Below, piece by piece: positions 1 to 64,000 of a DNA stretch of 64,000 bases (position 1 is its first letter; every line of letters starts with the position of its first letter). The notes beneath the pieces are model-generated. The model was given only the letters and a program-made list of their open reading frames with translations, was not told the origin of the DNA and did not search any database. Origin of the DNA: Terramyces sp. JEL0728 (taxonomy: Eukaryota > Chytridiomycota > Chytridiomycetes > Rhizophydiales > Terramycetaceae); assembly GCA_027603945.1 (NCBI GenBank), contig JADIIU010000045.1:37761-101760 (forward strand), in the 5' to 3' direction. A program made the position numbers and the translations under genes.

Positions 1-2062
1 AAAGTGACTGAAGTGGTTGGGTCAACCATTTCGACCATAACTAGAGATTCGGCTTGAGCACTTAAGGCCTGCATACTGACAGATTCTAGGCAGCTGTTGG
101 GATCCAACGAGAGCACACGGACAGTATTGTCATCACACCCTATTGCCAAGAATCTAGCTCTTTGTCTCCCTTCTGGAATAGGCGACATTGCCATACAAGT
201 AACATTTGCATTCATTTCTTTACGATCTTGGAACTCATTAAGGTTTCCTGCATTATCCAGTTCAAAGTAGACAATTTCTCCATCGGATAATGCAATTGCC
301 ACTTGCTTATAGTTGCTTGATCCTTGAATAATGGTCTTGCCGGCTGGTGCTTTCCATTCACTGACACGACGGTCGGATCGGATGTGTCGGATACCCTTTG
401 GATATATTTGTACCAGTGCATCATCGCCCAACTGTCCAGCGCTAATTGTTGGTGTGGTGTCCAAAATGCCAGTGTCTTGAACTTCTTCAATGCTCTCACC
501 AATGCTAAGGACAAGCGTTGCATTAATAAAGGAAATAATAATAAAGGAATCATATTCATCTAATATTAGTCTGGAATACCTTCCACGGAACCTCTTACAG
601 TCCAAAGAGCCGTTGGGCTACCGGGAAGATCAGCAGTGGCTAGCTCAGACACTTCCAATCCATGTCGAAGGATTCTAAAGGAAGATCTAGCTCCTTTTCC
701 GCACAATGCGTAGATCTGGGGCGAATCATCACCAGTCAAATTCGCCACGGTTGCATCAATCAACGGAGAAAGAGAGTTTACTTCATCGACAAGAGCGAGG
801 TTGCGCAGTTTTCTCGGGGTAATCTCTGGCTGTGGTGAATTTTCATCAATCTCGATACTTTGGAATTCTGGCTGTTCTTCGTCGTCATCTCCCAAGTTTT
901 CAACTTGATATACTTGGTGGTTCCCAAATTCTGATGCCACAAACAAGAATCCTGACTTTAGCAAGTTCAATCCTGTTGATGGCGGCAAACTTTCGAAATA
1001 TTTCAATCTGATATTTGCAACCTGTCCAAATCCGCCATCTGCTCCAGTTATATAATCCATGGTCAATTTAAAGACATCTCCTAATTCAGTCTGCAAGAGA
1101 ATAAAGAAGCTCTTTTTCAATCTATGAACAGCGCTTGAAATAATAATTGTTTTTCTTTCTGGTGGCAATTCTCCGTTTGGATACGGAACTGGATCCAGAG
1201 GATTCTTTCGTTTTGGTATTGGAATTCTTACTGGTTGATAGTCTGGATGGAACCAAGAAATATATCCTTCCGAACAAACTAAAACACCTGAAGGGCCATC
1301 ATTTCCCCCGGGTACTGGGACTAAATAGTTTGATGTCCTATCGATCACTGCATTCCACTTTCTTCCAACATGATTCAAACCAAGATCTAATTCATGGAAT
1401 ATCAATTTCTAAAGTTAATAATCCACTGACCTGTTCAATATTTTCAAATGCTTTCCCAGTATGGTCAGTATCAGATTCGCCAAAATCAACCTCAATCGAA
1501 GCAAAAATAGGATTTTCAAAACCAACATCGATTGGTACTATATGTGCGCAGACTGTATGTGACTTGTGAGCTTCCAACGGTGACGAAATGGTTAGTTTTG
1601 AATTTGCATCTCTGTTTAATACATATACAAATTTCTGTTTTTCCATTGCGCCTGTGTTAAATAGCATGTACCAATCATTATCGCACGACCCTTAGGATCA
1701 GATGCAAGGTACTGTCCAGGAACTGCTCTACGACACCCACTCTTCCCAAATGTCTCTTGATGTAATTTGTTGAATCTTCCATCAGCATACTCCAACACTA
1801 CTATCCTTCCAGAATCAGATCCGATAACGATAAAGTCTTTAGACGACCCGGTTAATCTGAATGGTTGAATGGACCTGATTATTCCAAATACCTGTGAACT
1901 AGCAACTGTTTGCAGTGATCCAGTGGTGGTATCAATATGTAGCAGTTCAATGGCAGTATTCCGAGCGACCAGGATTTCTTGGCGTTTTGTACCTGTAAAA
2001 TTACCCACACATGAGGCTGTAATTGCACTGGTTGACTGCAGTGTGAGATTGTAGAAATGCAT
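1..2062 (-). CDS. RSE1: RSE1/SF3B3-like U2 snRNP subunit, 3' end beyond window
   Basis: Encodes the first ~666 residues of the SF3b beta-propeller scaffold (SF3B3, about 1,200 aa in animals), which acts in the nuclear U2 snRNP at branch-site recognition. The N-terminus starts MHFYNLTLQ, and blocks such as FGKSGCRR, ELDLGLNH, VPGGNDGPSGVL, ASEFGNHQVYQ and HGLEVSELA match the SF3B3 family rather than DDB1 or CPSF160. The coding sequence joins across three introns at 1652-1671 (20 nt), 1409-1430 (22 nt) and 560-579 (20 nt), each restoring family-conserved sequence. The last visible exon is open to base 1, so the C-terminal propeller lies outside. A spliceosome gene carrying ultrashort introns itself shows that a canonical U2 machinery handles them. 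Start chosen as the first ATG matching the family N-terminus. Confidence 0.95.
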
Positions 2063-2703
2063 ATGTTTTTTGGATCTGCCAAATTTTTTTCTCTTTGAAA
2101 TTCAGGGATAGGTAATTAATCCAGGATGTATCCATGGAATTCGAGCGTAGTTGCTGGTCTGCTTTAAAAGACGTTCAGTCTCTAGTGCATAGCTAATGTT
2201 TTTTGTGCAGTTAAAATGGGATTTGACCAATCTTGCACAATCTTAACTCGCGGATAATAGTTATCAGGGTTTGTAATATACTATTGACATTGTCATTGGT
2301 AGCCGTCAATCACATTGCAAATAGCTGTCAACCACATTGCAAAATATCTCCAATGAACGATTGCCCAATATACATTGCAATAATTGATTACCCTGAATAA
2401 TACTAAGGAAACCCAAAATGCTCAAAGTACTTTCAATTTTGTCATGCTGATTTGGTTCGAGCCCAGTCAAGCCCAGTCGTTGAATTCATCTTTACAAAAT
2501 TAAAACAGACAGCATGGACACAAGTATACAAATCGACGAGCGCCTGATAAAAGAGCTCACAATAATAACAGGTTAAATATACTAACAAGAGAAATTCCTC
2601 CAAAGCCAAATTGGTACTACTTGCTAAAATACGGATTCCTAAGTATTCTCATTGTATGGAATGTAATCATTTGCACATTGCGTATATATAAATAAATTGT
2701 ATA
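2063..2703. other. Intergenic spacer, no gene seen
   Basis: About 640 bp between the divergent start of the RSE1-like gene and the stop of the first TMEM135-like gene. I see no frame with family similarity on either strand. It contains a two-copy 22-bp direct repeat (2301-2344). It must hold the promoter of the RSE1-like gene and the terminator of the TMEM135-like gene. Confidence 0.6.
2301..2344. repeat. Two-copy 22-bp direct repeat
   Basis: Two adjacent 22-bp units (2301-2322 and 2323-2344) differ at about three positions and share the core CACATTGCAAA. A further ACATTGCAA occurs near 2371. The copies sit in the upstream region of the RSE1-like gene, so they could be regulatory, but that is only inferred from position. 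Confidence 0.55.
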
Positions 2704-4062
2704 TTAGTAGGTTCCCAGTATTGCTTTCATCATTTTATAGAGCATGGACGAAATATGCCATGGTTCTTTTTGGTACAATGACATGATGACACTCCAGGAA
2801 ATACAGCTGGCCAAAACATCAAGATGGGGAATGTAAATGATGGTTCCTTTGGCTACCAGCATTCGGTACAGTGAGTGCACAGCTTTGGGCAAGCAGTACA
2901 TTGCCAATTCCGCTCTCTTTGGCTTTTGTTCGAGCAGAATGGAAAGACCGCTGAAAGCACCTAGAAAGTAAAAGAAATACTTTGGGCTAGTGGTTGGGAG
3001 TGCGCTGCTCAAGAGGCACATGCAGTATTGGAAAACTGCTGCGTAGGATGAGATAAATACTCCGGAAAAGAATACCGATCGGAATATCTGGGTGAAATAT
3101 TTGACTGGGCTATGTTAGTGTGATTTACTTGAGGACAAAGTGCTTGGTTTTCAATACCAGCAGCGGAACAATGTTTAAAGTAAAGTATACTGGGGTCATT
3201 TGCTTGTATATAGCCAGCCATTTGAGCGACGCACATTCAGCACAGCTATCAACATTTGGATGGTAGATACAGCACGGTAAACTAGGCATCCGACCCCTGT
3301 ATTCTACGATACGATCCTGCAGTTTTGTAATGTTTGTGCTGGTTGCCTTGAGCAACTGCATTGTTTTTAGCATTGAATCATCTGCGCTATACTCCGGATT
3401 GGCAAGGTTACGTAAATGCAGTGATTGCGCTAAAAGGAATTCCTTTGGCACTTTGGCCGTCCGGATAATAAACGCATAATATTCCTTGGGCAACGTTGAT
3501 GGTCGAAAGGCCGAAGCGTAAAGCAACTGGGCACATGCCAAACAAAATAGAAGCGTGTCGCCATGAGGCACGGTAGGGATGTTTCTTTGCTTTAGAGCGT
3601 TCTTTCCGGCTTGCATAGATCGCATAAAGAACTGCTGAGTATATCCGATTCGATTAGGCCGAGTTTCGCATAGAATTGCGAATCCTGCCAAGAAACCTGC
3701 AATGGCTCCCTGCCTTTTAGTATGGCGACCTTCAACAAAAGCAAGAGTGTTTGATACTAGTTTCCAGATCAACGAGAAGGAACCTATCCTGAATTAGCAA
3801 GCCTTACATTGATCCGAATCTAGTGGGTTCTGCGCCAAATGAGTCTCTAAAACATTGGATTAATGTTGCTCTGAGTTAATCTAGAGTACTTTTTGCGATA
3901 CAGTTTGTTGAGCGACAAGAGAAACGTAATCCCTCCTCTAATCAAGAATGAAAAGAGGAAAGCTCTTGAACTGCCTTTCAGTGCGTGTATGAGGATCTGA
4001 CCGAGTGATTTCCATTTAGGTAGAGTGACAGACTTCTTCTCGTCGACTTTGTTTCCACTCAT
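2704..4062 (-). CDS. TMEM135-like membrane protein, copy 1
   Basis: A 433-aa multi-pass protein of the TMEM135 family (Tim17-like fold), linked in animals to mitochondrial dynamics and peroxisomal or lipid traffic. Visible family marks are the Gly/Ala-rich segment GAIAGFLAGFAILCE, the QFFMRSMQAGKNAL stretch, the Cys/His motif CCIYHPNVDSC and a C-terminal block EQKPKRAELAMYCLPKA. Exons join across three 19-nt introns: 3871-3889, 3789-3807 and 3110-3128. The start is MSGNKVDEKK, aligned with the paralogue through the shared LPKWKSL. It lies 67 bp downstream of copy 2 on the same strand, a clear tandem duplicate. The middle intron (3789-3807) is absent from copy 2. Confidence 0.85.
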
Positions 4063-4129
4063 GAAGAAAAATCAATTTACACCGATTTGGCATATTAAAA
4101 CGTGTGTAACACAGACACCTGATGTTTAT

Positions 4130-5566
4130 TTAGTAAGTGCCGACAAGAGCCCTCAATATCTTGTACAGGATTGAGGAGATTTGGTGAGGCTCTTTCTGGT
4201 ACAGCGACATGATCACACTCCATGAAATACAGCTGCCTAAAATATCCAAATGCGGGACGTGGATAATCCTTCCTTTATCAATCAAGATTTCGTACAATGA
4301 CTGGATCGCTTTAGGCAGACAGTACATTGCCAACTCGGCTCTTTTTGGTTTCTGTTCGAGGAGGATGGTAAACCCGCTGATTGCCCCCATCGCATATACG
4401 AGATACTTTGGATTGGTGGACGGGAATAGGTTGCAAAATAGACACATTCCGGCTTGGAAGGATGAAATATACGAAGCAATAAATGTGCCTGAAAAAAGTA
4501 CCGATTGGAAACTCTGCGAAAGGTATTTAGATGGGCTACAGTTAAAAAGAATTACTTTTGCAAAAAGTGCTTGGTTTTCAATACAAGTACAGGGACAATG
4601 TTCAAAGATAAATACACTGGCGTCATTTGCATGAATACTTGGTACCACTTTTTTGCAGAACAGCTGATACAGCTATCTTCTTTGGGATGATAAATGAGAC
4701 AGGGAATTCCAGGCATCTTTCCATTGAATTTAGTAAGGTAATCCTGCAACCTCTGCATATTTCCTTTTGTAGCGCCAAGCTCCTTCATGGTTTTAGTGAA
4801 CGTATCTCCAACATTATATTCGCCAATAGATTCAAGCTTCCTGATATGTGCAGCCTGGGTGACTAGAGATTGTTTAGGGACTCGCGCTGTTTTGATCATG
4901 AACGAGTAGTATTCCTTTGGAAGTGTAAGGGGACGAAATGCGTATGAATATAATATTTGGGCACACGCGAAGCTGAATAGGAGAGTATCTCCGTGTGGGA
5001 CTGTTGGGAACTTGCGCTGCTTTAGAGCATTCTTTCCTGCCTGCATAGATCGCATAAAGAACTGTTGAGTATATCCAATCCTGTTTTCTTTAGTTTCACA
5101 CAATATTGCAAGTCCAGCCAAGAAGCCTGCAATAGCGCCTTGTCGCTTGGTGTGTTTGCCTTCGATATAGGCTAAACTATTAGACACTGTTTTCCATATG
5201 AAGGAAAATAGTCCAATCATTGATCCAAATCTAGTTGCTTCACCTCCAAATGCTTCTTTGGTGGCATCGAATAGGGACTTTCTGGGTTAATCAAAAATAC
5301 TTGTTTTTGAATACTTTAAGCAGCAGCAACAGGAATTTTACTCCACCACGAATGAGAAAGGAAACTGCGAAAACTCTGCCACTACTTTTAACTGAATGGA
5401 GCAGTATTTCACTCAATGACTTCCATTTTGGAAGTTGGACAGGCTGTATTTCTTTCCTTTCTTTCATCTTGGTAAGTGCAATATTGTCCGCCCGCAATTT
5501 GAAGCCCCATGATTGAGTTACTTTGGTCCAATCTTCAATAGGATCTGCTTCAGAGAAAGTCACCAT
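4130..5566 (-). CDS. TMEM135-like membrane protein, copy 2
   Basis: A 465-aa paralogue of the neighbouring gene with the same order of features: basic N-terminus, LPKWKSLSEILLHS, GAIAGFLAGLAILCE, QFFMRSMQAGKNALKQR, CLIYHPKEDSC and EQKPKRAELAMYCLPKA. Two introns: 5282-5300 (19 nt) and 4536-4555 (20 nt). The sequence around FGSMIG is uninterrupted, whereas copy 1 carries a 19-nt intron there. The ATG at 5566 gives MVTFSEADPIED, an N-terminal extension of about 30 residues relative to copy 1. Membrane location (mitochondrion or peroxisome) is inferred from the family, not from a visible signal. Confidence 0.85.
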
Positions 5567-7036: not shown

Positions 7037-7081
7037 TGTGTAAATAAATTGAAAATATTTTACAATGGTTTTATAATATTT

Positions 7082-7968
7082 CTAGTCGTATTTGCAGGGC
7101 AAGTAGTAACAAAGTTCAATTGCTGGGTCTGACGAATGTAGGATATGATCCAATGTAATCGTAAGCACAATCCCTTGCTGCTCCATGATATTGCACACAA
7201 TTTTGTTTGGGTTTATCTGGTAGCATTGAATAAACTTTATAAAATCTCCAATATCGACTTTTACATGTGCACTATTCTGTGTAGCATCCTGGTAAATCTG
7301 CATGTCCTTATATTTTGAACAGACTGATAGCATTTCCGTTTGGATTTCAAATTCCAACACACCATTCGTAGTCGCACTTATCGTTAGCGTATTCGCAAGG
7401 TTCTTCATCTTTTCGATTAGTTTCTTTAAGACAATGATTGGTGGGAATTGTAACGAGAGTGTCGGATCTGGCATTTCTGGTTCGCCTAAATCTACAGCTG
7501 ATGACGGAGGAATTACTTTAACTGGAATCTAAATTATGCGCAGCTTACATCTTGGACAAGCTGCAAATGCTTTCCTGTCCTACTCTGATTTGTGATAGTT
7601 AAGCTTAGATATGGCAATTCTCGTCTAGTAAGCTTCATTGTAACAGATATGCTCGACTGCGCTGATTTCAATGCTTTAACAAAATGCTCTCCGCACAGCT
7701 GAATAAAAATCATGTTTTGATGCAGACTTTTAATTTGGTACTCTTCAAACAATCCATGCTGGGTGAATACTTGTTTACCACTGATAAATTTGCCCATACT
7801 TTGATCCTTGAATTTACAGAGTTGTTTAGTACGATTACAGACAGCTGAGTTTCACTAAAGCACAGTACCCATTGCTTGTCAAGTTTCTCCAAACTAGAAC
7901 TTAATTCTGTGTTAACAGCAAGTACTAAATAACAAGTCTGGCTGTGAGATGATTGCTCCCAATTTCAT
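7082..7968 (-). CDS. HUS1: HUS1, 9-1-1 checkpoint clamp subunit
   Basis: A 275-aa HUS1 orthologue (280 aa in human). HUS1 forms the PCNA-like 9-1-1 clamp with RAD1 and RAD9 at damaged DNA in the nucleus. Family landmarks: MKLGAI N-terminus, FIQLCGEHFVKALKSAQ, LPYLSLTI, QDIPVKVIP, VDIGDFIKFIQ and NPNKIVCNI. The frame requires three introns: 7907-7925 (19 nt), 7759-7778 (20 nt) and 7529-7548 (20 nt); with them removed the length is exactly 276 codons. The intron at 7529-7548 rejoins the conserved QDIPVKV junction. The start is the ATG giving the family-like MKL opening. Confidence 0.92.
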
Positions 7969-8010
7969 TTGTCCGAACTTTTTCAGACTGCAGAAAAATA
8001 TATTAAAAAA

Positions 8011-8869
8011 TTACACTTCAAACACTGGCTCCGGTTGGTCTTGTGAATTTGCATTAGTCTTTGCAACACCAACGTCAACTAACCGAAGCTTGGAGTGCGT
8101 GTACGACGGTTGTAGCTTGTGCTTTCTTTCACCTAGATAATTACGATGCATGATTAGCAGCAAAGTGACGCCGTAGAAGAGTAGCAATGCGGATAATACG
8201 CCAAACAAGAATCCAATCATTGGTCCCCAGGATATTCCCTTTTGATTTCCATTTATCGAGTACAAAAAGGAATACGGCCTTTGTTAGCAGTAATTACCAT
8301 CCCATGCTGGTTGTTTGATTAACAAGAATAAGTGAAAATGAGTATACTATGACAATCGACCACGGAAAACACATGTATACAATAGGAAAATCTGAAGTTG
8401 TGAGGTATAAATCAAATACTGGGAGCAAAAGGTTAAACACATGCGAAATGGATCCTTCAGCTATATCCGCAGCGCTATCATTACTAAACAATTGTCCAGC
8501 GATTAAACTCCAGAATATGACTGTTACTAACCACGACTGGGTGAGCGTATTCGCAAAGAAACACATGAATGCCTCGTTCCAAAACCGGGATAATTCACTG
8601 TTATTCATCGCCATGTAACTCTGATATGTCGCTATAGCAAAAAAGATGAAATTCAGTACCCAGTTGAAGTGTGTATAAAACCAAAAGTAATATAATCCTT
8701 GTTGCGATAGCATTGTAACTGTCCAGATGAAACAGAATACCGTAAGTATGAATCTGATTATGAATATTGTTTTTGGTTTTAGGAAATAGCTGTGCGGTGG
8801 GGGAGGCATTAGAAGTGGGCCGTCGTATTCTTCGTCCATTGTTAAACGCGTCTGTCGTGGAAACCCCAT
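8011..8869 (-). CDS. AIG1/FAR-17a-like multi-pass membrane protein, copy A
   Basis: A 279-aa protein with about six hydrophobic segments. It shares with the next two genes a THFNW motif after the second segment, a SHVFNLLLPVFD motif in the fourth, and WPYSFL then WGPMIGF near the last. In AIG1/ADTRP proteins a membrane Thr and a His are the hydrolase residues; the Thr of THFNW and the His of SHVFN are the likely equivalents, but assignment to AIG1/FAR-17a versus the related Rolling-stone family is tentative. One 19-nt intron (8279-8297) rejoins GWPYSFL. The N-terminal cytoplasmic part is proline-rich. First of three same-strand tandem copies. Confidence 0.6.
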
Positions 8870-11595: not shown

Positions 11596-12170
11596 ATGTT
11601 TGAAGCATTTCAGGATCCAAACGAACTTCCACCAACTGCAAGATTGATTTCTTTGATTTTGCAAGGAGCTTCGGTGGAGGATTATGAACCAAGAGTACTT
11701 GCGCAGCTGTACGAGGTTGCCCATTCGTATATCCTTAACGTACTCCAAGATGCTCAGTTATATGCAGACCATGCGGAACACAAGGAACTTTCAGTTGCAG
11801 ATGTAAAATTGGCCATAGAAACAAGAGCGACCTTGGATTTCACAAACCCTCCTTCCAGACAAGTAATTATTGTTTAAAAAGGCATTATTGCAACTAGCAC
11901 AGAAAAAGAATTCGATACCATTACCACTAGTGCCTGAAAAGCTGGGGCTAAGATTGCCGCCTGAAAGACACTGTCTTATCCGCAATAATATCAGTATCAA
12001 TCCAAAAGTACGATTTACTAATATAGAAACGAGTATCAGTAGATCCAGGAAATGTCGCGAAAAAACCAGCAGTCGCAATGCCAACACCAGCAGGAATCCA
12101 AATACCTGTTCAACCCATTACTATTAATTCAAATATTGCGAATGCGGATGATGACTATGATATGGAATAG
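11596..12170 (+). CDS. TAF9: TAF9, TFIID/SAGA histone-fold subunit
   Basis: A 178-aa TAF9 protein. The histone fold covers about residues 10-85: LPPTARLISLILQ, YEPRVLAQLYEVAHSY and the LSVADVKLAIE helix. After two 19-nt introns (11863-11881 and 12008-12026) the TAF9-specific segment follows: LLQLAQKKNSIPLP, then LRLPPERHCL, and the acidic ending DDDYDME typical of the family. Without the introns the frame stops at 11875 inside the conserved region. TAF9 pairs with TAF6 in TFIID and SAGA in the nucleus. Confidence 0.93.
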
Positions 12171-12192: not shown

Positions 12193-13719
12193 TTATTTCA
12201 ATTCTCGAAGCTCTGTTGCCTTCTCTTGCAGCAACTGCTTCATATTATTCAAATGCTCCAAATTCTCTTCCTTTAACTTTTCCATCTCCCCCACCGCATG
12301 TTTATTAATACGCTAAATAAGTAAGCAATTACTTGGTAAGGCTTCACTGTATGAGGCACTTTTCTAGGATTCAAAACAGGTTTAGGTTCTGGTGTTCCTG
12401 GACGTGTATCTTCTGGAGTTTCATCAAACGATTCCAGAATATCTTCCATTCCTGGTTTATGTATTGACGGCAGCACTTTATGCTTTGACGGCAACGGAGC
12501 AACAGGTTTCGGTGGTGGCGATTCTTTTGCCGATTTAGAGTCTTCAATAGGCTTGACTTTGGATTTTACATCTATGTTTTTCCTCTTCATTCCTACTGGT
12601 GTCTTTTTTATACTTGTAGTCAGACTACCCGAACTCTTTTGTTCAACCAATTTAGCTGGTGGATCTTTAATAGTGAGTTCTGGCAGCTTATCTAGTTTAT
12701 CTGCCTTTTCTATTTTATCAGGTAGTTTAGGTCTATCGCTAGCTGTTCGTTTCATTTTTTTAGACGCGTTAACTTTTTTTAATCATGAGTTACCTAGCTT
12801 ATCAGTGGTTCCTTTATCCAAGTTTGCTGCAGCTTTTTTTTCCAGATCGGATATTGCCGCTTCCTTTACTTTTTTACTGGCTCTTGGAATTCGGCTGTAG
12901 ATAGGTATGCTCGCTAGGAGACTACTCGCATACTTTGGCAGTTCTTGCGGCTGTTTAGTATCTGTCGGCTTCAAATGCACGATTTCTTGATCTTGATTGA
13001 ACAATTGTCGCTGTAGCTTTACACTTGTCATGCGGTCTTCCAACTCGTCTCGTTGCTTTTCTTCTTTTTCTCGCCTTTTCTTTTCATTGATCTGTTGCTC
13101 AATATCTAGCTTCCATTGCTGCGTCGCTTGTTGTCTCTGTTGAATATCGGGATCCTCAGATGCAAGTGTGGATTTAGTCCTAAAGTATGCATTCATCGGC
13201 TTGGAAGAAGTGGTTGAAAGCATTGACGTTTGCGAGTTGTTTGTTTGTATCCTAGTATGAGTGTTTCTAGAATCCCAAAAAAAGTCTGTTTGTACAGTTA
13301 GTTGGGTATGAGGAGGTTTTGCTCGCCTTGGATCTGGGATCTTTTGAGGGCCTTGGTTAGTGAATGCATACCTTTATTAGAATAAATCACCTATATTATC
13401 GAATAGAAACCTTTTCTCTATTGTTAATTGGTATTACTTCAAATTCTACTATGGTGTCCAGAGTTCGCTGAATTAAAACGATAGTACCCGTCCTGTTCTA
13501 AAAATCTGCTTCTCTGCTGGAATTGCACCCGACAATCCCTTGGTTTAATCCTCTTTTACTTTTTCCTGAATCTTTTCATACTGCTTCTTTTCTTGTGCTT
13601 CGCGCTTTTGCTGAGCTGAATTAATTCCAATGTACCAAGACTATCCAGCCACTCTTTTTGTAGATTCTGTTTATCCTTTGGTTAAGTGCATCTACTTGGT
13701 GTGCTATTATTCTAACCAT
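12193..13719 (-). CDS. CCDC66/CSPP1-like coiled-coil protein
   Basis: A 454-aa charged protein rebuilt from nine exons. Introns: 13676-13695, 13616-13635, 13539-13559, 13468-13487, 13391-13410, 13352-13371, 12773-12793 and 12313-12332, all 20 or 21 nt. Removing them gives exactly 455 codons. The start MVRIIAHQ leads into QKEWLDSLAQQKREA, and the middle has QQWKLDIEQQINEKKRREKE, both like the W-containing helices of CCDC66/CSPP1, which are cilium and centrosome proteins in animals. A Pro/Lys-rich linker and a C-terminal coiled coil (EKLKEENLEHLNNMK) follow. Exon 6 is a 19-nt micro-exon (13372-13390). Family assignment is by motif resemblance only. Confidence 0.55.
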
Positions 13720-19059: not shown

Positions 19060-19166
19060 ATTTCCATAAGTTCCTGCTTTTAGTCTGATCCGTCCAAATT
19101 GGTAGGCAAACCGCAAGTGTGGCAAAGTTGCTATGGAGTTTTGATATTTTTTACAACAGAATATTT

Positions 19167-47274: not shown

Positions 47275-47388
47275 TTCTTGCAAAATTTGCGGTGGCTTCG
47301 AGCCTTGAAAAGGGTGGAAATACATGTGATAGAATAGCTGCAAATTAAACTTTATCAAGAATAAAAGAAACGTAATAAAACAAAGCAT

Positions 47389-49754: not shown

Positions 49755-52700
49755 TTACTTGTTTTTTAGTGTCTTTTGTTTTTCTGCGTTTTCAACCAGC
49801 TTTTTTTCAATGAATAACCCCTAAATTAACGCAACTTACCTTTCTTAATCGCACATCCTCCATGTATTTCTTTGCCAAGTTGTCCTTGTCTGCCTTGTCT
49901 CCCATATCCTCCAGCTCTTCTTCAGTCTTTGGCACCCAGTACGGATCAATATCGAGCACCTCAAACCCAGTAAAGACAAGTTGCGGGCTTGCAACTCCAC
50001 TGGTTTTCTTTCGCAATTCATCTACAAATCCAAACGATTCGACGACAGGCAAGGAAGCTTTGATCGTAAACAATGGTGTTCCTTCTTTAATATCTTCGGC
50101 TAAAATCTTTCCTTTTCTTCTAGATAATACGCCATCCACTTTTCCCATGTAAAGAGCCTCAGTCTGTAATTCACAGGTATATTGTGCAAGCATTAGTCGA
50201 GGAGACCACTGCAAGAACCCTTGTCTGATACACTCCTTGGTAAAAGATAAAATTTGTCCAGGAATAGACATTGAATCCGCGGCAGTGATTTCATACTCTT
50301 GAATGACAACTGCGATACCTGCAATTGGCTCATTACACAGCGGGCCAGTAGTAGTAGCAAGCTGGAATCCTGACAGGATACTGGCAATAAAGTCCAAGGA
50401 TTCTCCGCTTTTATCTGACGCAAATTCTCCCAGCCAACATTCGTTAATAGTTATTTACCTGGATACTTGTTTACCAGGAATACAATTAACCAATAGATTA
50501 GCTCCATTTTTAGGTCCGACTGAGATAATGTTGTCCAGCAGAGATTCCCAATCGACTTCGATATTCCCACACTCCTTGTCGTTTAAAGATTCCTTCATTG
50601 CGCTCTTTAGTCCGGTTAAAAATTCTTTTGCAACTTCCAGGTTGTGTTCGGTTTGTACCAAGTTGGATATATGAGTGTTGCTGAGCAAGTATTGTCTAAC
50701 ATTGCTCGGCAGTGGAATCACTCTGATCGTTAGAGCCAGCGATTTATCTGAATTGGATTTTGATACCGCTCCAATTGGTAGATTCTTGTGGTCAAATGAT
50801 ATTGAAGGATTAAATGAAAGCGTTTCTCTGAACGGGACAATTGGTTTCGACACTTGGATTTCAATCTTTGCAAATCTTTCCCTTAAATCCTTCACGCAGC
50901 GCTACGTTAATGCCTAGTTACTTCCAGGTGCAGTTCTCCAGCACACACGATAACATTTTCGCCTGTATCATGTAATTCCACTTGAACACAAGGATCAGAT
51001 CGGTTCAAGAGTTCTAATCCCTCAATTAACTGCGTCATTTGAGCTAACATTAATTTAAATTACATGGATTTTCAGGCTCAAGTGCAACTCGTAAGATAGG
51101 TGGATTCTCCAGCTTGAATCCGGCTAAACTGCAGCAATTCAAATCACTGGTCAAAGTAGCAGTCTTCAACACTTTTTCGTTGCATCCCAAAACACCAAAT
51201 ACGTTTCCAGCAGAGACTGAATCCAGATCTTGTAAATCTTTACCCATCAGCAGGAATAATCGTTCCACCTTCATCTCTGTAACATGCTGATCCCTGTCCG
51301 GATCATCCAAATCGTATTTTGGTCCTAGGATGTAAAGTTTTTGGCCGACTTTGATTACACCAGAATAAATACGAGCAAATCCAACCAACAACTCGGTTTC
51401 AGCTGGTTGGGCAGTGTCGACACTGTATTCACTATAGCTATCATCTTCTTCACTCTTTTCCAATTTTGATTTTGCGATTGCTGCTTGGCGCATCTGCCTT
51501 AATTCTTCTGGAGTATATCTCTGTTTTTTTGTTACCGTGACAGGCAAGTCTTTCGATGAAATTGTAAACATCTTGCTGATATAAACAACTACTGGCGCGC
51601 TTTCGCTGCCATCGCAACCAACTATAGCTTTGTTGACAGTCTTCTTCTCTTTCAAATCGGTATCGTTTGGCTGTAGGATATCTTGCATCCTATACGACTG
51701 GGCAGCTAATGGATTGGGAATCTTTTGCACCACAGCCAATAAAACCGCATCTGAAAGCGGGAGCCATTGAGACATTACAGATTGCAATAGTATTTTCAAA
51801 TCTTTTGCCTTCAAATCTCTAGGTGGCACTTTGATTCCAAGCGACTGTATAATTTTTTCCAAAGTTGCTCGATCGTTATTGTAAACAACGTCGTACACTT
51901 TCCAGATATTTTCAAGTGCAAATTGAACAAACATTCGTTTTAATGCTCTTCCTTTTAACCCTTTTGGTCCAATTACGCGCTTGGTTTTGGGATCCAAGTA
52001 ATAGTTTCCCCACATGAATCTATTCAGATTATTTTCTTTGACGCCCAATTTTGAAGCGTAAATCTTTGCGAATTGTATCGTTCTATTGTTAATGAGAGAT
52101 ACCTGAAAGCCCATCCATCAACGGCACTTGCAAAAATAACGTTTCCTTTTTCAGGGGCAAAGTAGAATTCTTTGTCCGGATTCTCTTCAATCTCTTTTTC
52201 TGTGTCCATTTCCGCTTCCTGAAGGATATCTCCAGCTTCGAATGTTCCAAGTATAGCATTCACTTGCTCCAAAATATGCGACAAGTGGACATATGCTTCT
52301 TCCGGTGTGTGTTTCAGCTCCGTTATTAATCTATCAATCTTGTTCAAAACCAGAATTGGCTTTACTTTTTCTTGCTTTGCTTGTCTCAGAACTGTATGTG
52401 TCTGCGTTAATTGAAATTACTTGAGCGCAGACACCCTCAACAGCATCCACCAATAGCAATGCCCCATCACAGAGCCTGGATGCAGTAGAAACCTCCGAAG
52501 AGAAATCCACATGCCCAGGAGAATCAATTAAATTAATCAAGTATTCCTTTGTTTCTAATTTTCGTTCGTTATTTGAATCAATTGACTGCTGCACAAGATT
52601 GAAGAATAAAGAGATTCCCGATGATTCCATTGTGATTCCTCTTTCCTGCTCGTCCTCTCTCGAATCCAGATATCGTACTTTTCCTGCCAGTTTTGAACTG

Positions 52701-52936: not shown

Positions 52937-54173
52937 TTATTCTTTCTTGAGCTTCTTGGTATCTCTGTGGTACAGGACAACAGCAGTGAATAAAAAGAAT
53001 GCGGCAAACATGCTCCACACATTGACGTAGTAAGGGTTGGCGACGGTGAGGAAACGAGGATATTGATCGTGTCTGAATGGGCGAATTTGAACAGTTTCAT
53101 TAATGTTGAGGTAAGTAAGACCGTGTCTCTTGTACTCGACTTTGAACGTAAAGACTCCATAATGATCTGGCAATCTGAATTCGGCTACCAGTTTGTTGCC
53201 CTTTGGTTTCATAGTCTGGCGAATATACGGGTCCAACATGACTGCTTCAAATTGTGCATCGGCTGGAGTGAATGGCGAATACTTTCCGTTTTCCAATTTC
53301 AGCAACTCTAATTCGTATACCTGTCGTTAACCAATCGTACCATATCATCTTTAATTCTGTAAATCCCGTGTTGGTCAGCTTCTCCATTTCTGTGGTGTTT
53401 CTTTGATTTGACTTTTACAACAGACTTTTCTTGAAAGACCCATGCAGTGAGCTCTTTTACAAAATCCTTATTTTGGGGGTACGCATCTTTAAACAATTCA
53501 GATGAAGCAGTGAATACAACACGTGCTTGGTTTAACGCTTGGAATGCAGAAACAAGGACCAGATCAGAGCCAACAAGAGTGTGAGAAGTGATTTTGGCAT
53601 CTTCGCCAGAGAAAGAGCTTGGGCTTCCAACTAATACAGGCTGCACCAGTTTATTCTTTCCAGATAAGTGGTGGCCAGTACCTACATCAGAAAAACAAAC
53701 CTTTGTATACCGGTGCTTTGACATTCTTTGGAATAACATGTTCACTTGCAACAATCTTTCCAGTAACCAAGTTCAGCTCTGGAGCAAAGTAATCCGACAC
53801 AGCAGTTGAAGCATAATCAACTGAAAATTCAAATGCAAAGTCTCTGGCTGGATCGTTTAATTCCGATGGCGCCAATACAACATTCCCACCATAATTAACA
53901 TATTCAATCAAATTGCCCATTTTAAGAGCACCTCCTAAATTTGAAGGCGAATCAAGTAACAATACATTTTCATACGCCAATTCTTCAAACTGTATGAAAT
54001 CAAATGTTTCTTTTTTGTGCTTGAATTCCAAATCATGCCCACGACCTACATTAGCGAAATGTACTTTTTAGAGAGTCGAATAAACTGGAATATTGAGATT
54101 TGGAATCTAGTGAATCGAGCACTACGAGTGTCTTTGCCAGTAGCGTTGAAGCCAAGATTAAAAATGCTTGCAT
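52937..54173 (-). CDS. WBP1: WBP1/DDOST subunit of oligosaccharyltransferase
   Basis: A 392-aa OST48-type subunit of the ER oligosaccharyltransferase for N-glycosylation. A signal peptide (MQAFLILASTLLAKT) precedes LVVLDSLD, the LLDSPSN...GGNVVLA block, a middle region with VYELELLKLENGKY, AVMLDPYIRQTM and FRLPDHYGVFTFKVEYKR, and a C-terminal membrane anchor (SMFAAFFLFTAVVLYH) ending in the ER-retrieval-like KKLKKE. Introns: 54046-54064 (19 nt), 53682-53700 (19 nt) and 53321-53340 (20 nt). The start was chosen because exon 1 supplies the signal peptide expected for the family. Confidence 0.93.
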
Positions 54174-55457: not shown

Positions 55458-56095
55458 ATGACCTTATTCAACCAGTAACCCAAGTTAACACAGATTAAAA
55501 TTAACGTCAATACAAGAACCCAAATATGCGAGAGCGTGCGGGACTTGCTACAAATACCGCAGAATCCTTGACCCAGTGAGAAACTGCTAACATAGGTGCC
55601 TATTTTGAAGATTGTTGATTTGACCGACAATATCGACATAGTAAACGTACTGTAAGTATTTCTAATATAGATACAGCATACATACAACTTTGTTTGCAAC
55701 TGTCTCGCTGCACGAAGCAGACAAGAAAGGCCACATAACCAACCGAAATGTAGAGCTGGTAGGATCTACTATTTCAAACGCTTCCATACTACGAGACGAT
55801 AAAGGTATGTTGCTGCTGAAACAGGCAATCTAGGCTGTTTTTTCATTTTTTCGGATTTATCTATCGTAAAAATTGGCAACTACAGGTTAGAATTTAGGCT
55901 GTACGATCTAGAGTAAGCAGCTTTAACAGCAGGAATAAAATAGATCAAGCTAATGATAACAGTATAGTGCTGTCCAGAGTGGTGCATGTAACAGATGCCA
56001 AGAGCTTTCCGGGCTTAACTTCTCCAAACGAGATCCTAGCTGCCTTTTCTGCACAAGGAGCAACAGTTCCTATTAGGAAATATAGTAAAGAATAG
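55458..56095 (+). CDS. Velvet-domain protein 1
   Basis: A 179-aa protein that is almost entirely a velvet domain, the NF-kappaB-like DNA-binding fold of fungal developmental regulators (VeA/VosA/VelB type). Landmarks: KYARACGTCYKYRRILDP, PILKIVDL, GSTISNASILRDDKGNLGCFFIFSDLS, YRLEFRLYDL, SFPGLTSPNEILAAFSAQGA and VPIRK. Five introns: 55475-55493, 55576-55595, 55652-55670, 55805-55824 and 55913-55929 or 55932. The last has tandem acceptors (CAGCAG), so it is 17 or 20 nt. The first exon is only 17 nt. First of four tandem paralogues; no long disordered region as in VeA. Confidence 0.88.
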
Positions 56096-56456
56096 CTTAA
56101 TTGTACATTACTTTTAACTTGTACATTACTAATATATTTTATATGAAATATGGATTTGAAATGAATACCCAACTTTTCATGACTAATTATCGCTCATCTA
56201 AAAACAACTTGTTCCGCCCATTCGTATTCGGTAAGCAGGCTTGATAGAATAGTCCATAGATAGTCTGTTACATTGGACTACAAAGCAGTATGGTTTTTTA
56301 CATTGAAACAAACTGATTCATTTTGAGCAAACCAGGCCTGCAAAAACCGCTGCAGTTTCAAGCATGACCTCGAAATTATTAGAAAATTGCTCGAATCTTA
56401 AATTTCAGTCGTTTGGTCAAGGTTTCCACAAATCAATAAAAATTTTCCAAATTAAA
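56096..56456. other. Spacer between velvet genes 1 and 2
   Basis: About 360 bp, A+T-rich, no coding frame supported. It should contain the promoter of velvet gene 2. Confidence 0.6.
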
Positions 56457-57103
56457 ATGGAGACATACAGAGACTTGGAAAAGTACTGAACGGTTAATAG
56501 TAGGTTTAAACTCGAAATTATGCAAGACCCAAAGTGCGCAAGAGCGTGCGGAAGTAGTCAAAAGTATCGACGAGTGTTGGACCCTGTAAATTCTGGTTAA
56601 TTCTAGACTCCAATCTTGAAGCTAGTTAGTAAGGACGATGAACGTGGTTTCGACCCTGTATTGTAAGTCTAGTTAACTTGAGATATGATTATCAACCGTA
56701 TCTTATCGCCACAGCCTCGCTACTTGAAGTTAATACCCGTGGCAGAACAAATGCTTCTCAAGATGTCGTTGGGTCAACGATATCCAACGCTTCGATCCTA
56801 AGAGACGATAAAGGTAATACACATTAATCTAGGCAACCTTGGCTGTTTCTTTATCTTCTCTGATATCTCAATAGCAAAAACTGGCAACTATAAACTCGAA
56901 TTTAAATTATTTCACCTACTGTAACAACTGCTGATCGTAGAAATAGACTAGATCAATCGGACAAGAGTTTTATGGCTGTATCAAGAGCGTTTCAAGTAAC
57001 AGACGCAAAAAACTTTCCTGGACTAAGTTCTCCAAACGAAATTTTAGCTGCATTTTCAGCGCAAGGTGCAGTAGTACCTATAAGAAAATTCAATAAAGAT
57101 TGA
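56457..57103 (+). CDS. Velvet-domain protein 2
   Basis: A 181-aa velvet protein closest to velvet protein 1: KCARACGSSQKYRRVLDP, PILKLVSKD, GSTISNASILRDDKGNLGCFFIFSDIS, YKLEFKLFHL, NFPGLSSPNEILAAFSAQGA and VPIRKF. Five introns: 56483-56503, 56586-56606, 56663-56682, 56814-56832 and 56921-56940 (19-21 nt). The first has tandem TAGTAG acceptors, giving 18 or 21 nt without frame change. Intron sites match those of velvet protein 1 one for one. A recent duplicate, judged by shared NASILRDDKGNLG. Confidence 0.88.
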
Positions 57104-58126: not shown

Positions 58127-58839
58127 ATGGTGGAGCTAGAAAAGTAATAATAGCGTAACGCAGGTTCAAATTGGTCGTCAGACAGGAACCAGAGTACGTA
58201 AGAGCGTGCGGAATAGGGAGGAAAGACAGGAGAATGATTGACCCAGTATTTTAAATTAATATAGGCACCAATATTGCAACTGGTTAATGAAAATAACGCT
58301 GACGAGCTTGATGAACTGTAAATAATATATTTATGATCTTAGATCTTCGCTACATCCATTTCTAGTGGTTAAAACAACGCTGTGGGAGGTGGACAAACAG
58401 AACAACCTCAAAGAAAACAAAGAGGAGAACTTGCTTGGCTCAACGGTTTGCAACGCTACGCTTTTGCGAGACATAAACAGTAATTCTGATTAACAACAAG
58501 AGAAATTAGGCTGCTTTTTTACATTTGCAGACCTCTCTGTAATATACAAAGGTCACTATAGACTAGAATTCAAACTGTTTAGTTTATTGTAATAGCGACT
58601 AATGTAGAAATGGAAGCACTCTTATATCCGGCGCAAGCGAGTGTATTGGGAGAGCGTATTCGTCTGTATTTGAATCCACAAGCGCCAAGGATTTCCCTGG
58701 TTTATCGTCGCCGTCTGAGCTGATTTTGCTGTTTGCCTCACAGGGATTGTGTATGCCAGTAAGAAAGCCGAAAACCAATTATAACACTGCAAATTCAACT
58801 GGTTCGCCTTCTAATGGCGATATGGACGACGAGGATTAA
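58127..58839 (+). CDS. Velvet-domain protein 3
   Basis: A 202-aa velvet protein: YVRACGIGRKDRRMIDPAPILQL, GSTVCNATLLRDINKKLGCFFTFADLS, YRLEFKLFSL, DFPGLSSPSELILLFASQGL and MPVRKP, with a short acidic C-terminal tail (GDMDDED). RKDRRMIDPAPILQL is closest to the canonical KDRRPIDPPPIVQL of VelB/VosA. Five introns: 58144-58163, 58246-58264, 58318-58342 (25 nt, the longest clear one), 58480-58500 and 58589-58607, at the same sites as in velvet proteins 1 and 2. The start is the ATG giving MVELEKFKLVVRQ. Confidence 0.88.
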
Positions 58840-59806: not shown

Positions 59807-60444
59807 ATGGCAAATGATAATAACAGGCGCTTCAAACTTGTCTTGCGACAGCAACCAAAATTCGCAAGAGCTTGTGGAAACGGAATAAAAGACAGGAGAG
59901 CTGTCGACCCAGTAACAGTATTTTGATCCACAGGCACCAATTGTACAAGTAATTTACGACGATGTCGAGGACGATATACCGCCATTTTTGTAATTACAAC
60001 TAACAACAGACTAGAAAAACACTTAATGTTGATTCTACATATAAATTTGTGGATAATAGGTCCTCAAAATGAAAAAGTAAAGGCAGACAGACAAATTACA
60101 GGATCGATAGTCTCCAGCCCAACGATTCTGAGAGACGACCACGGTAGTTGCCGTTTGATTTAGGTATAAATGGCTGCTTTTTTACATTTGCAGACATTTC
60201 GATAAGAGAGCGGGGACAGTTTCAACTGGAGTTCAAATTGTACGATATTTCTGGTGAAGGGGGAGCATTATCCAATGATAGCGCCGGTGTTATTAATACC
60301 TGTTGGTCAAATACCTTTACTTGTATGACACCAAAAGATTATCCCGGAATGGTGGAACCGTCAGATTTGATACGCAGTTTCGCTTCACAAGGATTACCAT
60401 TACCAATTAGAAAAGTTAGAAATCAAAATGATCACGACCCTTAA
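59807..60444 (+). CDS. Velvet-domain protein 4
   Basis: A 191-aa velvet protein, the most diverged copy: FARACGNGIKDRRAVDPAPIVQV, GSIVSSPTILRDDHGINGCFFTFADIS, FQLEFKLYDISGEGG, DYPGMVEPSDLIRSFASQGL and LPIRKVR. Three introns: 59912-59933 (22 nt), 59990-60009 and 60144-60163 (20 nt). These match introns 2, 3 and 4 of the other copies; the first and last introns are missing, with exon sequence continuous there. MVEPSDL resembles the GMxEST motif of canonical velvet domains. It ends 11 bp before the stop of the convergent LRP1-like gene. Confidence 0.9.
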
Positions 60445-60455
60445 TAATAATGATT

Positions 60456-60866: not shown

Positions 60867-61368
60867 TTTGTGATTTTTGAAAAAAAAAATACGTGATAAT
60901 TACTCATGATTACTTGCTTGGATTGCCAGCTGAATTGTTGCAAACTGTATACTATTTAGACTGCACCACCATAATCGCCACTCAACTATGTAACTTTGGA
61001 ATTTACTTTATTTCTCACTACAAGTCTCAGAGCCCAGTGGTTAGAATCTTGAAAGTATGGGTCAAAGTATTTCTGATTTCATTGATGCTCTTTGAATCTT
61101 TTTGGTCCTGCTTGGCGTTTTGCGGTGATACTCTGTCCCGTAATGAAAATTTTATCCTCAGCACTGCCTCAAACTGTCAATCCCAATACGATAATGGTCC
61201 GACACGCTAAACGCCTTCCAGCTCGCGGATTTCACTATACAAACCCTTTTATCCTTCTGGCAGCATTTCGTAGCTCGTGTCAATCAAAACAACTGACCGC
61301 CCGAGCAAAGCCCCGCTTGAAACATATTGGATTATTTTTTTTGTAAGCTTTTCTGCTTTTCTTACCAA
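60867..61368. other. Spacer with a membrane-segment-like fragment
   Basis: About 500 bp between LRP1 and desaturase 1, which diverge. A + strand frame at 60893-61210 has hydrophobic stretches (TIIATQLCNFGIYFI, VFLISLMLFESFWSCLAF) and recalls part of a fungal seven-TM (DUF6534-like) protein, but it lacks an ATG at its head and has no other exons I can attach. It may be a gene remnant. Confidence 0.35.
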
Positions 61369-62646
61369 ATGTCTAAAGTCCGCCAGCGTCAGCCAAATAG
61401 CAGTACCCCAAGCACTGCTGCGGAAGGAATCCAGGGCAAAATTGCTGCACCAGAAGCAGCCAAAAATTTTAAACGTCCAAAGTTCACCTTGAAAGAAGTT
61501 CGTGATAAAATCCCAGCTCACTGCTTCCAACGTAGTGCTTTAAAGTCACTATCCTATGTCGCGATTGATCTTAGTATGATTGCAGGTTTGGTGTATTTTG
61601 CTTCAAATATTCACTTGATGCCAGCAGTTGTTCAGCCAGCTGCCTGGATATTTTACTGGGTATTTCAAGCTATTGTAGGTGTTGGTATTTGGATTTTGGC
61701 CCATGGTAAGTAATAGATCTTAAATTAGAATGTGGACACGGTGCATTTTCAGATCACAAATTATTGAACGCTGTAGTTGGATGGGTACTTCACTCAATGG
61801 TCCTTATTCCGTTCTTTTCGTGGAAATTCAGTCACTCCAAGCACCATAAAGCTACTGGCCACATCAAGAAAGGTATTTTGCGTGTTTATCGTAGATATGG
61901 TCTTTTTGCCGTACACTAGATCTCAATTAACTGGCAAGAAAGAGTTTGTCAAAGAAATGCACGAAGGAGATGAACCGCTTCTTCAAGACGCTCCAATCGC
62001 TCATGTTTTTACTTTGTTTTTGATGCTTGTCTTTGGTTTCCCTTACTACCTTTTGACCAACATTGGTGGAAACTCTTATATCATTGATGGAAAGCCATAC
62101 AAAGGATGGAGAACCAGCCACTACTATCCGTGGTCCCCAATATTTGAAGCAAATCAGTTTTTGGCTATTATTTACTCTGACATTGGCATGATTTTGTGGA
62201 TTGGGATTCAGGTTGCTCTTGGAATTAAGCTTGGATGGCAAGTTCCGGTTCTATATTTCTTGATTCCGTGGATTCAAGTTAACTGCTGGTTAGTATTGAT
62301 CACTTATTTGCAGTAATTTCTTGTTTAACCTAGACATACCGATCCAGTTATCCCACATTTAAACAATGATGAATGGGACTTTATGCGCGGTGCTTTGATG
62401 ACTGTTGATAGAGATTGGGGATTCTTGAACGTGTTCTTCCACCACATCACTGATACTCATGTTGTGCACCACTTGTTTTCCACCATGCCGTTCTACCATG
62501 CTCAAGAAGCTACTGCGGCTGTCAAAGGGTTTTTGGGTGAACATTACACCAAGGATGATACTCCATGTCTTCAAGCTTTGTGGAAGAGCAAGACTTTGTG
62601 TCGGTATGTTGAAGACGAAGGAGATATACTGTTCTATAAATATTAA
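61369..62646 (+). CDS. FAD2: Delta-12 type membrane fatty acid desaturase 1
   Basis: A 403-aa ER desaturase that introduces a second double bond in oleoyl lipids if it follows the family. Start MSKVRQRQPNSS, then FTLKEVRDKIPAHCFQRS, the three His boxes HECGH, HSKHH and HVVHH, and [20 protein letters not shown]. Introns: 61706-61728 (23 nt, splitting the first His box), 61873-61894 (22 nt) and 62313-62333 (21 nt). Removing them gives exactly 404 codons. Whether it is delta-12 or delta-15 specific cannot be read from the sequence. Tandem with desaturase 2. Confidence 0.92.
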
Positions 62647-62908
62647 TCTATAATATTCGATATTTAGCGATAATAAATCAGAAAATATCACTTTCATTAT
62701 TTTTGTCCGCGTTTTCACCTCATAGAGAAACTGTCAAAATTGGAGCTGGCTCTCTTGCTCCTCCTCTTTCGTTAAACCTCTTCATTCCCCAAGTGTTTGT
62801 CGATGCAATGTGAAAGTCTGCGTTTGGCCGACAAATTTCATTACAAGCAACCTCCGCCCGCAAAAATCATTATAAAAGAAGAAAAATATTTCCACCTACA
62901 GAAAAGCA

Positions 62909-64000
62909 ATGGTCAGGGCAAGAAAAGAAGAAAAGAAAAGTGCCAGCGCCGATGTCAAGGGAAAGCTTGCCGACGAAAAGTTTGCGACAGAATGGAAACC
63001 ACCAAGTACTTTCCTCTAATTTAGCTTTTACTCTGAAACAAATTAGAGACTGCGTGCCAGCTCACTGCTTCAAGCGCAACACTCTAAAGTCCTTGTCACA
63101 CGTTGTAGTTGACATCGCAATGGCCGCTGCTCTGTTTTACGGTGCTTTGCATATCAGATATCTTGACCTGTCGTTGCAGCCGTTTGCTTGGGCAGCATAC
63201 TGGTTTGCTCAGGGGGTAGTATGTACGGGTTTGTGGGTGTTGGCTCACGAGTGTGGAGTATTTCTAAATTAACCTTAGCACTCTGCTTTCTCGGACCATA
63301 GCATAGTCAACAACACTGTTGGGTTTGTTCTTCACTCTGCTCTATTGGTACCCTTCTTTTCATGGAAATACACACACTCTAAACACCACAAAGGTACCAA
63401 TCACATGGATAAAGACCAAGTATTTATCCCGCCAATCAGAAGAAGAGTTGAACGTCACTACAAAGTGCCTTTATCTGGTACCGTTGAAGCACTGCACTCT
63501 GGCGCCGAATTGTTGGAAGATGCGCCGCTGTTCAATGTCCTCCTAGTTGTATTCATGCTGCTGTTTGGATGGCCATTATATATTTTAAAGAACGTTACCT
63601 CACAAAAACACAAGCAGTGGGTTTCCCACTTTTTCCCAAACGCACCAATCTTTGAAGGTCGCGAATACTATGGTGTCGTGTATTCCAATATTGGCATTAC
63701 CATGATGCTTGGTGTGCTTGCGTCTCTTGTCTACAAATTCGGTGGTTTGACCGTATTTACTTACTATGGTATTCCATACTTGTTTGTTAATATGTGGTTG
63801 GTATTGATTACTTATTTACAACACACCGACCCAACCGTGCCTAAATATCGCGGAAAGGAATGGGACTTTATGAGAGGTAAGCTAGATTGTAACAGTAGGT
63901 GCATTAGGAACTGTCGACAGAGATTTTGGTATCCTAAATATCTTTTTCCACCACATCACTGATACTCATGTTGTGCACCACTTGTTTTCCACTATGCCAT
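62909..64000 (+). CDS. Delta-12 type membrane fatty acid desaturase 2, 3' truncated by window
   Basis: A paralogue whose first ~343 codons are visible. Start [15 protein letters not shown], then [18 protein letters not shown], the His boxes HECGH, HSKHH and HVVHH, reaching HHLFSTMP at the window edge. Introns: 63006-63024 (19 nt), 63258-63278 (21 nt) and 63877-63898 (22 nt). The second lies within the first His box (HECG|H), close to but not at the same codon as intron 1 of desaturase 1, and there is no counterpart of desaturase 1 intron 3. DNA identity with copy 1 is very high around the third His box (63941-64000). Confidence 0.9.

Follow-up and report, generated by a model that had tools for sequence, protein, structure and literature searches.

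Can the spliceosome of a fungal nucleus remove introns of only about 20 nucleotides (nt), and by which signals would it define them? The question is raised by a stretch of 64,000 nt (the window, C45:37761-101760) from the assembly of Terramyces sp. JEL0728 (15.0 Mb in 231 contigs), a fungus of the Chytridiomycota (Rhizophydiales, Terramycetaceae) that is, to our knowledge, not a reduced parasite. An initial annotation of the window had proposed ultrashort introns throughout, and this pattern proved real, in that the excess of the intron motif, a gene parse blind to intron length and alignments of homologous proteins agree. Widespread predicted introns of 19-23 nt with U2-type signals are thus supported in a fungus by homology and by length-blind tests. 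With a probability of roughly 0.88, judged from sequence, the U2-type spliceosomal introns of Terramyces would have been reduced to about 20 nt throughout the genome, with two near-fixed internal distances (a two-ruler geometry) and with the interpretation of the splicing factor U2AF2 that is given below.

Independent evidence comes from EFL1, to whose DNA 119 homologues (120 listed minus the Terramyces record, and including fission yeast Ria1 and Batrachochytrium) were aligned, with donors restricted to GT or GC, the acceptor to AG, and the length left free between 10 and 200 nt. The same five introns were placed in 587 of 595 cases, and 40 further placements were scattered over 10-199 nt. 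The five introns are:

52402..52420, minus strand: EFL1 intron 1, 19 nt, GTAATTTCAATTAACGCAG, placed by 116 of the 119 homologues and identical in the deposited model (P0001)
52083..52102, minus strand: EFL1 intron 2, 20 nt, 118 of 119 homologues
51044..51063, minus strand: EFL1 intron 3, 20 nt, 119 of 119 homologues
50902..50921, minus strand: EFL1 intron 4, 20 nt, 117 of 119 homologues
49821..49839, minus strand: EFL1 intron 5, 19 nt, 117 of 119 homologues

When the boundary rule was dropped (10-60 nt, eight chosen references), removals of 19, 20, 20, 20 and 19 nt persisted at 39 of 40 sites; their ends shifted by as much as about 11 bases, and 25 further removals, of 10-39 nt, fell elsewhere. 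An ordinary fungal intron length, with the segments of about 20 nt as by-products of frame fitting or assembly errors, is hardly credible in view of this recurrence of the same five removals where up to 200 nt were allowed. The EFL1 protein encoded in the window matches the Terramyces sp. JEL0728 record at 99%; it is 85% identical to that of Boothiomyces sp. JEL0838 and 62% identical to that of Globomyces pollinis-pini. To within one residue, the site of the first Terramyces intron coincides with a gap of seven residues in the Boothiomyces protein, such as would result if a tiny intron had been lengthened in annotation; two other gaps in this protein lie away from the five Terramyces introns, a gap in the Boothiomyces U2AF2 is not at a Terramyces intron, and conservation of the introns in Boothiomyces is not claimed.

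Similar lengths were obtained for a Sec1/Munc18 gene, which was aligned with 12 homologues, of which 11 show an identity of 22-28%. Its 21-nt introns weigh more, since a length divisible by three cannot come from frame repair:

46069..46089, minus strand: Sec1/Munc18 intron, 21 nt, 12 of 12 homologues
45954..45973, minus strand: Sec1/Munc18 intron, 20 nt, 12 of 12 homologues
45775..45793, minus strand: Sec1/Munc18 intron, 19 nt, exact in 5 of 12 homologues, the other seven giving 10 nt (four), 43 nt (two) or 30 nt (one)
45637..45657, minus strand: Sec1/Munc18 intron, 21 nt, 10 of 12 homologues
45330..45350, minus strand: Sec1/Munc18 intron, 21 nt, 11 of 12 homologues
47052..47072, minus strand: Sec1/Munc18 intron, 21 nt, 9 of 12 homologues
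47205..47225, minus strand: Sec1/Munc18 intron, 21 nt, in the gene model, placed by only 3 of 12 homologues

At another 21-nt site two positions compete (8 vs 2 homologues), and the unconserved C-terminal half gave many long spurious gaps in this alignment. The deposited Terramyces annotation already contains introns of about 20 nt in EFL1 and Sec1, so that the tiny-intron data are already public, though apparently unremarked. The deposited models of the two genes also hold "introns" of 30, 51, 60 and 157 nt, which would speak for ordinary lengths; the 157-nt "intron" of the deposited Sec1 model (43369-47325), however, spans the 19-nt intron at 45775..45793, an exon and a 21-nt intron, and this exon is kept by the Boothiomyces protein. 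In tiny-intron genomes, exons can go missing from the annotation, as here in Sec1.

Tests that use no trained gene finder point to the same size class. Spans of the form GTA...TAAY N2-5 AG occur 29, 31 and 18 times at 19, 20 and 21 nt in the window, compared with 4.0, 3.8 and 2.9 expected from 20 first-order Markov resamplings; summed over 19-21 nt, 78 observed spans stand against a mean of 10.9 (standard deviation 3.4, maximum 19) in 100 second-order Markov controls. With the stricter YTAAY motif, 200 kb of contig C1 gave 46, 69 and 33 spans at these lengths, against 20, 14 and 16 in the reversed sequence. In the length-blind parse the codon usage was known, the motif and the length were unknown, and all lengths of 12-120 nt carried a flat penalty. 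With GT-AG boundaries, 26 of its 72 "introns" fell at 19-21 nt, as compared with 0-8 for eight control dinucleotide pairs (highest for TT-AA, 8/67), among which TG-GA produced a chance cluster at 41-42 nt (10/59).

For a catalogue, a gene finder was trained that was seeded with 19-21 nt motifs, rewards YTAAY and allows introns of 12-150 nt; its genome-wide tables illustrate the lengths and do not prove them, because of this seeding. The final window catalogue (GC-AG allowed, models with a score of at least 15) comprises 125 introns in 36 models, with 36, 43 and 26 introns at 19, 20 and 21 nt. The initial annotation, with about 106 introns of which roughly 90% were put at 19-21 nt, is broadly matched by the 105 of 125 (84%) found here. 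Its description of the boundaries also holds for the most part: among the 119 introns of 17-25 nt, 104 have the GTA donor and 84 the TAAY ending 3-6 nt ahead of the AG, and 115 are GT-AG, but four rather than two depart from this as GC-AG (the model admitted only these two classes). The longest clear intron had been given as 25 nt, which agrees with 119 of the 125, but the catalogue retains six segments of 27-132 nt, which may be real longer introns or model errors:

46630-46680: 51-nt Sec1 segment, also in the deposited model
50381-50458: longer segment
16784-16886: longer segment
28514-28586: longer segment
23364-23495: longer segment
7988-8014: longer segment

These six are a further point in favour of ordinary intron lengths, against which stands that neither the length-blind parse nor the trained finder has a second length mode of comparable size. 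The "introns" of 50-150 nt that appeared in early expectation-maximization (EM) rounds were attributed to merged neighbouring genes, and most of these calls were lost when the gene-start penalty was lowered, the intron penalty raised and the length prior tightened; a 54-nt GT-AG call in the first MATE gene was replaced by a 21-nt GC-AG intron once GC was allowed.

The tabulation of intron lengths that had been suggested was run with the same finder on about 345 kb of the 15 Mb, and sizes of about 20 nt recur outside the window. In C1:1-200000, 331 of 339 introns are 18-24 nt long; together with the window (264 kb), this region yields 439 introns, 374 at 19-21 nt and 421 at 17-24 nt, with a density of about 2.1 per kb of coding sequence and at least one intron in 123 of 147 models. 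A further 26 loci on 23 contigs contain 144 introns (121 at 19-21 nt, 137 at 18-25 nt), of which a few are double-counted because two loci (L049 and L050) overlap, and one locus (L037) has none. Nearly all introns predicted by this finder, which was trained on short introns, are thus below about 25 nt, as in tiny-intron genomes. An in-frame stop is present in 76 of 97 predicted introns of 21 nt, compared with 169 of the 277 that measure 19-20 nt (Fisher p 0.002), an enrichment not counted as selection since the finder misses stop-free 21-nt introns.

How such introns could be recognized was approached through the anatomy of the 421 predicted introns of 17-24 nt in the window and C1:1-200000. 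At the donor, 369 of them begin with GTA, followed by A at +4 (53%), T (47%) or G (only 22%) at +5 and T at +6 (57%), and positions +5 to +9 are 38-57% T. The branch motif is an exact YTAAY in 256 and a looser form in 419, counts that have to be read with the finder's reward for this motif. The predicted branch A is at intron position 14-16 in 374 introns and is followed by 5 or 6 nt in 344; counted from zero, 75 of the 106 introns of 19 nt have it at 13 and 71 of the 97 introns of 21 nt at 14, and among the 171 introns of 20 nt it is at 13 in 79 and at 14 in another 79. The distance from the 5' splice site (5'SS) to the branch is therefore about 13-15 nt and that from the branch to the 3' splice site (3'SS) 5-6 nt, with about 7-9 nt between GTA and the branch motif and a YAG-rich acceptor. 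Since 5-6 nt after the branch leave three or four bases before the AG, there is no room for a polypyrimidine tract. Canonical fungal introns are tens of nt or longer and have a GTAAGT or GTATGT donor, from which the Terramyces introns differ by their mode of 20 nt and the rarity of G at +5; U12-type introns have an ATATCC or GTATCC donor and a TCCTTAAC branch. Frame data alone cannot separate splicing from translational bypassing, in which the segments would be kept in the mRNA and skipped by the ribosome, and removal at the DNA level, like that of the eliminated sequences of ciliates, belongs to the same alternative. It is very improbable, given the GT-AG ends with a YTAAY-like motif at a near-fixed distance, and given that candidates for U1C, U2 RNA, U2AF1 and U2AF2 are present, with such segments in the three protein models themselves.

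The U2 RNA candidate is canonical (140 bits) and has a GUAGUA that fits the branch motif. The U1C zinc finger matches with 52 bits, and its gene model opens with an intact finger, although the U1C search also matched in one control genome, E. coli. U2AF1 was found in four pieces with 51-69% identity to the human protein. The gene models of U1C, U2AF1 and U2AF2 contain segments of about 20 nt, and for U2AF2 these could be compared with homologues:

C2:44938-46279 (L040): U2AF2 candidate, a profile match across a stretch with four stops

The spliced U2AF2 model has solved U2AF65 chains as its best match, and of its four predicted introns three were recovered with a set of 12 homologues chosen from the 120 listed: one of 20 nt by all 12, and two of 19 nt by 12 and by 10 of them. 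In human U2AF65 the aromatic residues of RNP1 in RRM1 stack on the RNA. The corresponding motif is NKEHCHVEF in both Terramyces and Boothiomyces macroporosus, with histidine at the two usual aromatic positions, each of which is F or Y in 118 of the 120 homologues listed; the exceptions among these are Boothiomyces and an unnamed protein (P0136, with S and I), while Globomyces (YAF) and Kappamyces (FAF) have retained the aromatics. RNP2 of RRM1 is altered as well, whereas RRM2 is canonical (SKGFAFCEY) and the tryptophan of the ULM is intact. A human-type U2AF65 has two RRMs with an aromatic RNP1; here RRM1 lacks both aromatics and RRM2 has both. The change in RRM1 is read as a sign that tract reading probably decayed after space for a tract had been lost, which is a correlation.

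Taken together, a two-ruler intron may be envisaged, whose length would vary as the 5'SS-branch and branch-3'SS distances flex. The segments would be removed by a U2-type spliceosome, in which U1 and U6 would read a short donor, GUA with a weak +5, U2 would pair with YUAAY and U2AF1 would read YAG. U2AF2 would no longer read a tract after the branch and, with a decayed RRM1, would act mainly via RRM2 and protein contacts. In human, efficient U2AF-dependent splicing needs at least eight pyrimidines (PMC8363638), and for the B complex about 52 nt from 5'SS to branch were estimated to be necessary without a change in shape (PMC6692369). Introns of this size would be too short for A and B complexes of the human type, and therefore the contacts of U1/U6 and of U2 would have to be shortened or sequential. 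We tentatively suggest that the spliceosome of Terramyces and Boothiomyces may have given up tract reading, that U2AF2 RRM1 lost its RNA contacts, that two near-fixed distances around YUAAY define the introns, and that assembly proceeds on introns unable to hold U1/U6 and U2 at once by the human estimate of about 52 nt; this scheme as a whole is possible rather than probable. It is somewhat unlikely that U2AF instead binds the U-rich stretch between donor and branch, the change in RRM1 being unrelated drift. The T content of positions +5 to +9 and the intact RRM2 and ULM tryptophan would be consistent with such binding, but the loss of both RNP1 aromatics together with the changed RNP2 is unexpected in a canonical reader, and the 7-9 nt between GTA and the branch motif leave little space. 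Replacement of U2AF by an SPF45/RBM17-like route has a precedent in human short introns with truncated tracts (PMC8363638) and would suit introns in which the space after the branch is too small for a tract; it is improbable, however, since U2AF1 and U2AF2 candidates are both present.

Several points weigh against the view that U2-type introns have shrunk in this manner. Independence can be claimed for the homology and length-blind tests, but not for the length, branch and paralogue tables of the finder. In the length-blind parse, the total score of GT-AG (1361) is barely above that of TT-AA (1353), with the other pairs at 1283-1321. The factor look-up that the initial annotation had suggested succeeded for U2 RNA, U2AF1, U2AF2 and U1C but not for U1 RNA, which had no Rfam match in the genome, in a search that does not prove absence; loss of U1 is not claimed, since U1C is clear in the same genome. 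Likewise, U6 RNA was not found in the whole genome by the Rfam model or by three core patterns, from which its absence is not proven. Two Rfam matches to U6 (27 bits, cut-off 44) in two near-identical loci were rejected because they overlap a coding gene and the intron in it. The first pattern gave zero matches, the second nine forward and one reverse (control six and one; eight of the ten scanned, no U6 match), and the third three and one (control two and one; all four scanned, no U6 match); U6 may be intron-split, divergent or outside the assembly. For the N-domains of U1-70K and RED a first look gave no candidates, which leaves these searches uninformative and absence not proven. The U2AF2 match of 252 bits, for the whole gene read across its introns, is below the curated cut-off of the family (310), the 120 homologues are the best-scoring ones and not an even sample, and the link between RRM1 and intron length is correlative and comes from a single lineage, with P0136 also lacking the RRM1 aromatics while its introns are not visible. 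In two loci that are 98.9% identical, the indels speak for the intron reading, with two one-base indels in 142 predicted intron bases and none in 2220 exon bases, but substitutions number 0/142 in introns and 15/2220 in exons, so that the intron rate is not raised. The L005/L006 pair is free of indels in both exons and introns and differs by 31 substitutions in exons and three in introns. Segments of about 99% identity occur elsewhere in the assembly (L029/L030 on C199 and C111; L005/L006 on C184) and are perhaps alleles or recent duplicates.

The other gene models of the window have introns of the same kind. Pfam was run on nine spliced models (TAF9, OST48/WBP1, two velvet, desaturase, MatE, Hus1, RSE1 and BipA), which bore out the names that the initial annotation had given to TAF9, OST48/WBP1, velvet, desaturase, MatE, Hus1 and RSE1. 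The coordinates are those of the trained catalogue with GC-AG allowed:

140..2062, minus strand: 5' part of RSE1; introns 1652-1671 (20 nt), 1409-1430 (22), 560-579 (20), 173-191 (19, GC-AG); propellers matched by Pfam on an earlier GT-only model
2704..5566, minus strand: tandem paralogues g02/g03, with two intron positions in common; introns 3871-3889, 3789-3807, 3110-3128, 5282-5300, 4536-4555
7082..8614, minus strand: HUS1 model; introns 8279-8297 (19 nt), 7988-8014 (27), 7907-7925 (19), 7759-7778 (20), 7529-7548 (20); residues 201-472 are Hus1, with Pfam Hus1 1-286/288 unbroken on the spliced model
11596..12170, plus strand: TAF9; introns 11863-11881 (19 nt), 12008-12026 (19); Pfam TFIID-31kDa 2-120/122
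12193..13719, minus strand: unnamed gene model with eight introns of 20-21 nt
17511..20689, plus strand: two MATE transporters, the first with introns 17763-17782 (20 nt), 18085-18105 (21, GC-AG), 18799-18818 (20), the second with 19382-19404 (23), 20155-20175 (21), 20458-20478 (21) and Pfam MatE
25687..27714, plus strand: TypA/BipA GTPase; introns 25805-25824, 26001-26021, 26221-26243, 26606-26625, 27133-27153, 27578-27598; Pfam GTP_EFTU and BipA_C
52937..54173, minus strand: OST48/WBP1; introns 54046-54064 (19 nt), 53682-53700 (19), 53321-53340 (20); Pfam OST48_N and OST48_MD
55458..56095, plus strand: velvet paralogue 1; introns 55475-55493 (19 nt), 55576-55595 (20), 55652-55670 (19), 55805-55824 (20), 55913-55932 (20); Pfam Velvet
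56364..57103, plus strand: velvet paralogue 2; introns 56483-56503 (21 nt), 56586-56606 (21), 56663-56682 (20), 56814-56832 (19), 56921-56940 (20)
58127..58839, plus strand: velvet paralogue 3; introns 58144-58163 (20 nt), 58246-58264 (19), 58318-58342 (25), 58480-58500 (21), 58589-58607 (19); Pfam Velvet
59807..60444, plus strand: velvet paralogue 4; introns 59912-59933 (22 nt), 59990-60009 (20), 60144-60163 (20)
61369..63962, plus strand: two fatty acid desaturases, the first with introns 61660-61678, 61710-61728, 61873-61894, 62313-62333 and Pfam FA_desaturase, the second with 63006-63024 and 63258-63278 (model uncertain close to the window end)

The TypA/BipA-type GTPase, here in a fungus, has an N-terminal extension of about 27 residues. 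Four tandem velvet-like genes (55458-60444), two of them with Pfam Velvet matches, are likewise present in this chytrid. In the trained-finder models of these four paralogues, five intron columns are common in position and phase, occupied in 3, 4, 4, 4 and 3 of the genes, and the introns in them are 19-25 nt long and unlike in sequence.

With its predicted introns, Terramyces would be a natural test of the smallest intron that a splicing machinery can handle. Its early splicing factors look conserved and not lost, and structures of yeast spliceosomes, from fungi, have been solved. In a fungus it thereby becomes possible to test how short the distance from 5'SS to branch can be, whether U2AF needs to read a tract, and when U1 and U2 bind. 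A survey of 644 fungal genomes gives mean intron lengths from 63 bp (Cryptococcus, termed relatively short) to 469 bp, and a class of about 20 nt is unmentioned in the excerpted part of it (PMC8476143); no report of such a class in fungi was found in open-licence papers, searched mostly as listings, and a pan-eukaryotic survey left out introns below 30 nt (PMC10639083).

Introns of about 20 nt are known from ciliates, nucleomorphs and mikrocytids, and with this chytrid the extreme extends to the fungi; the parallels that the initial annotation had drawn with ciliates and chlorarachniophyte nucleomorphs are matched by the literature (PMC10245619, PMC2633312). Stentor coeruleus, with introns of 15-16 nt, resembles Terramyces in its uniform, tiny, AU-rich U2-type GU-AG introns and in having U2AF1, U2AF2 and a U2 RNA with GUAGUA. 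Stentor is a ciliate, however, with the branch A at position 10 and a weak consensus, whereas in Terramyces this A is mostly at 14-16 within YTAAY and the lengths are spread more widely (PMC9505925). Tiny introns are also found in Nyctotherus (21-29 nt) and Paramecium (20-33 nt), but both are ciliates, and in Nyctotherus a branch motif was not found (PMC2633312). The mikrocytids, with introns of 16-17 nt, share the narrow length range and the conserved sequence, but they are parasitic Rhizaria whose spliceosome is strongly reduced, and the Mikrocytos genome has 224 introns, as compared with 421 predicted in 264 kb of Terramyces (PMC10245619). The chlorarachniophyte nucleomorph has a nearly identical length range of 18-21 nt (as quoted in PMC10245619), but it is the relic nucleus of an endosymbiont, whereas that of Terramyces is a fungal nucleus of 15 Mb.

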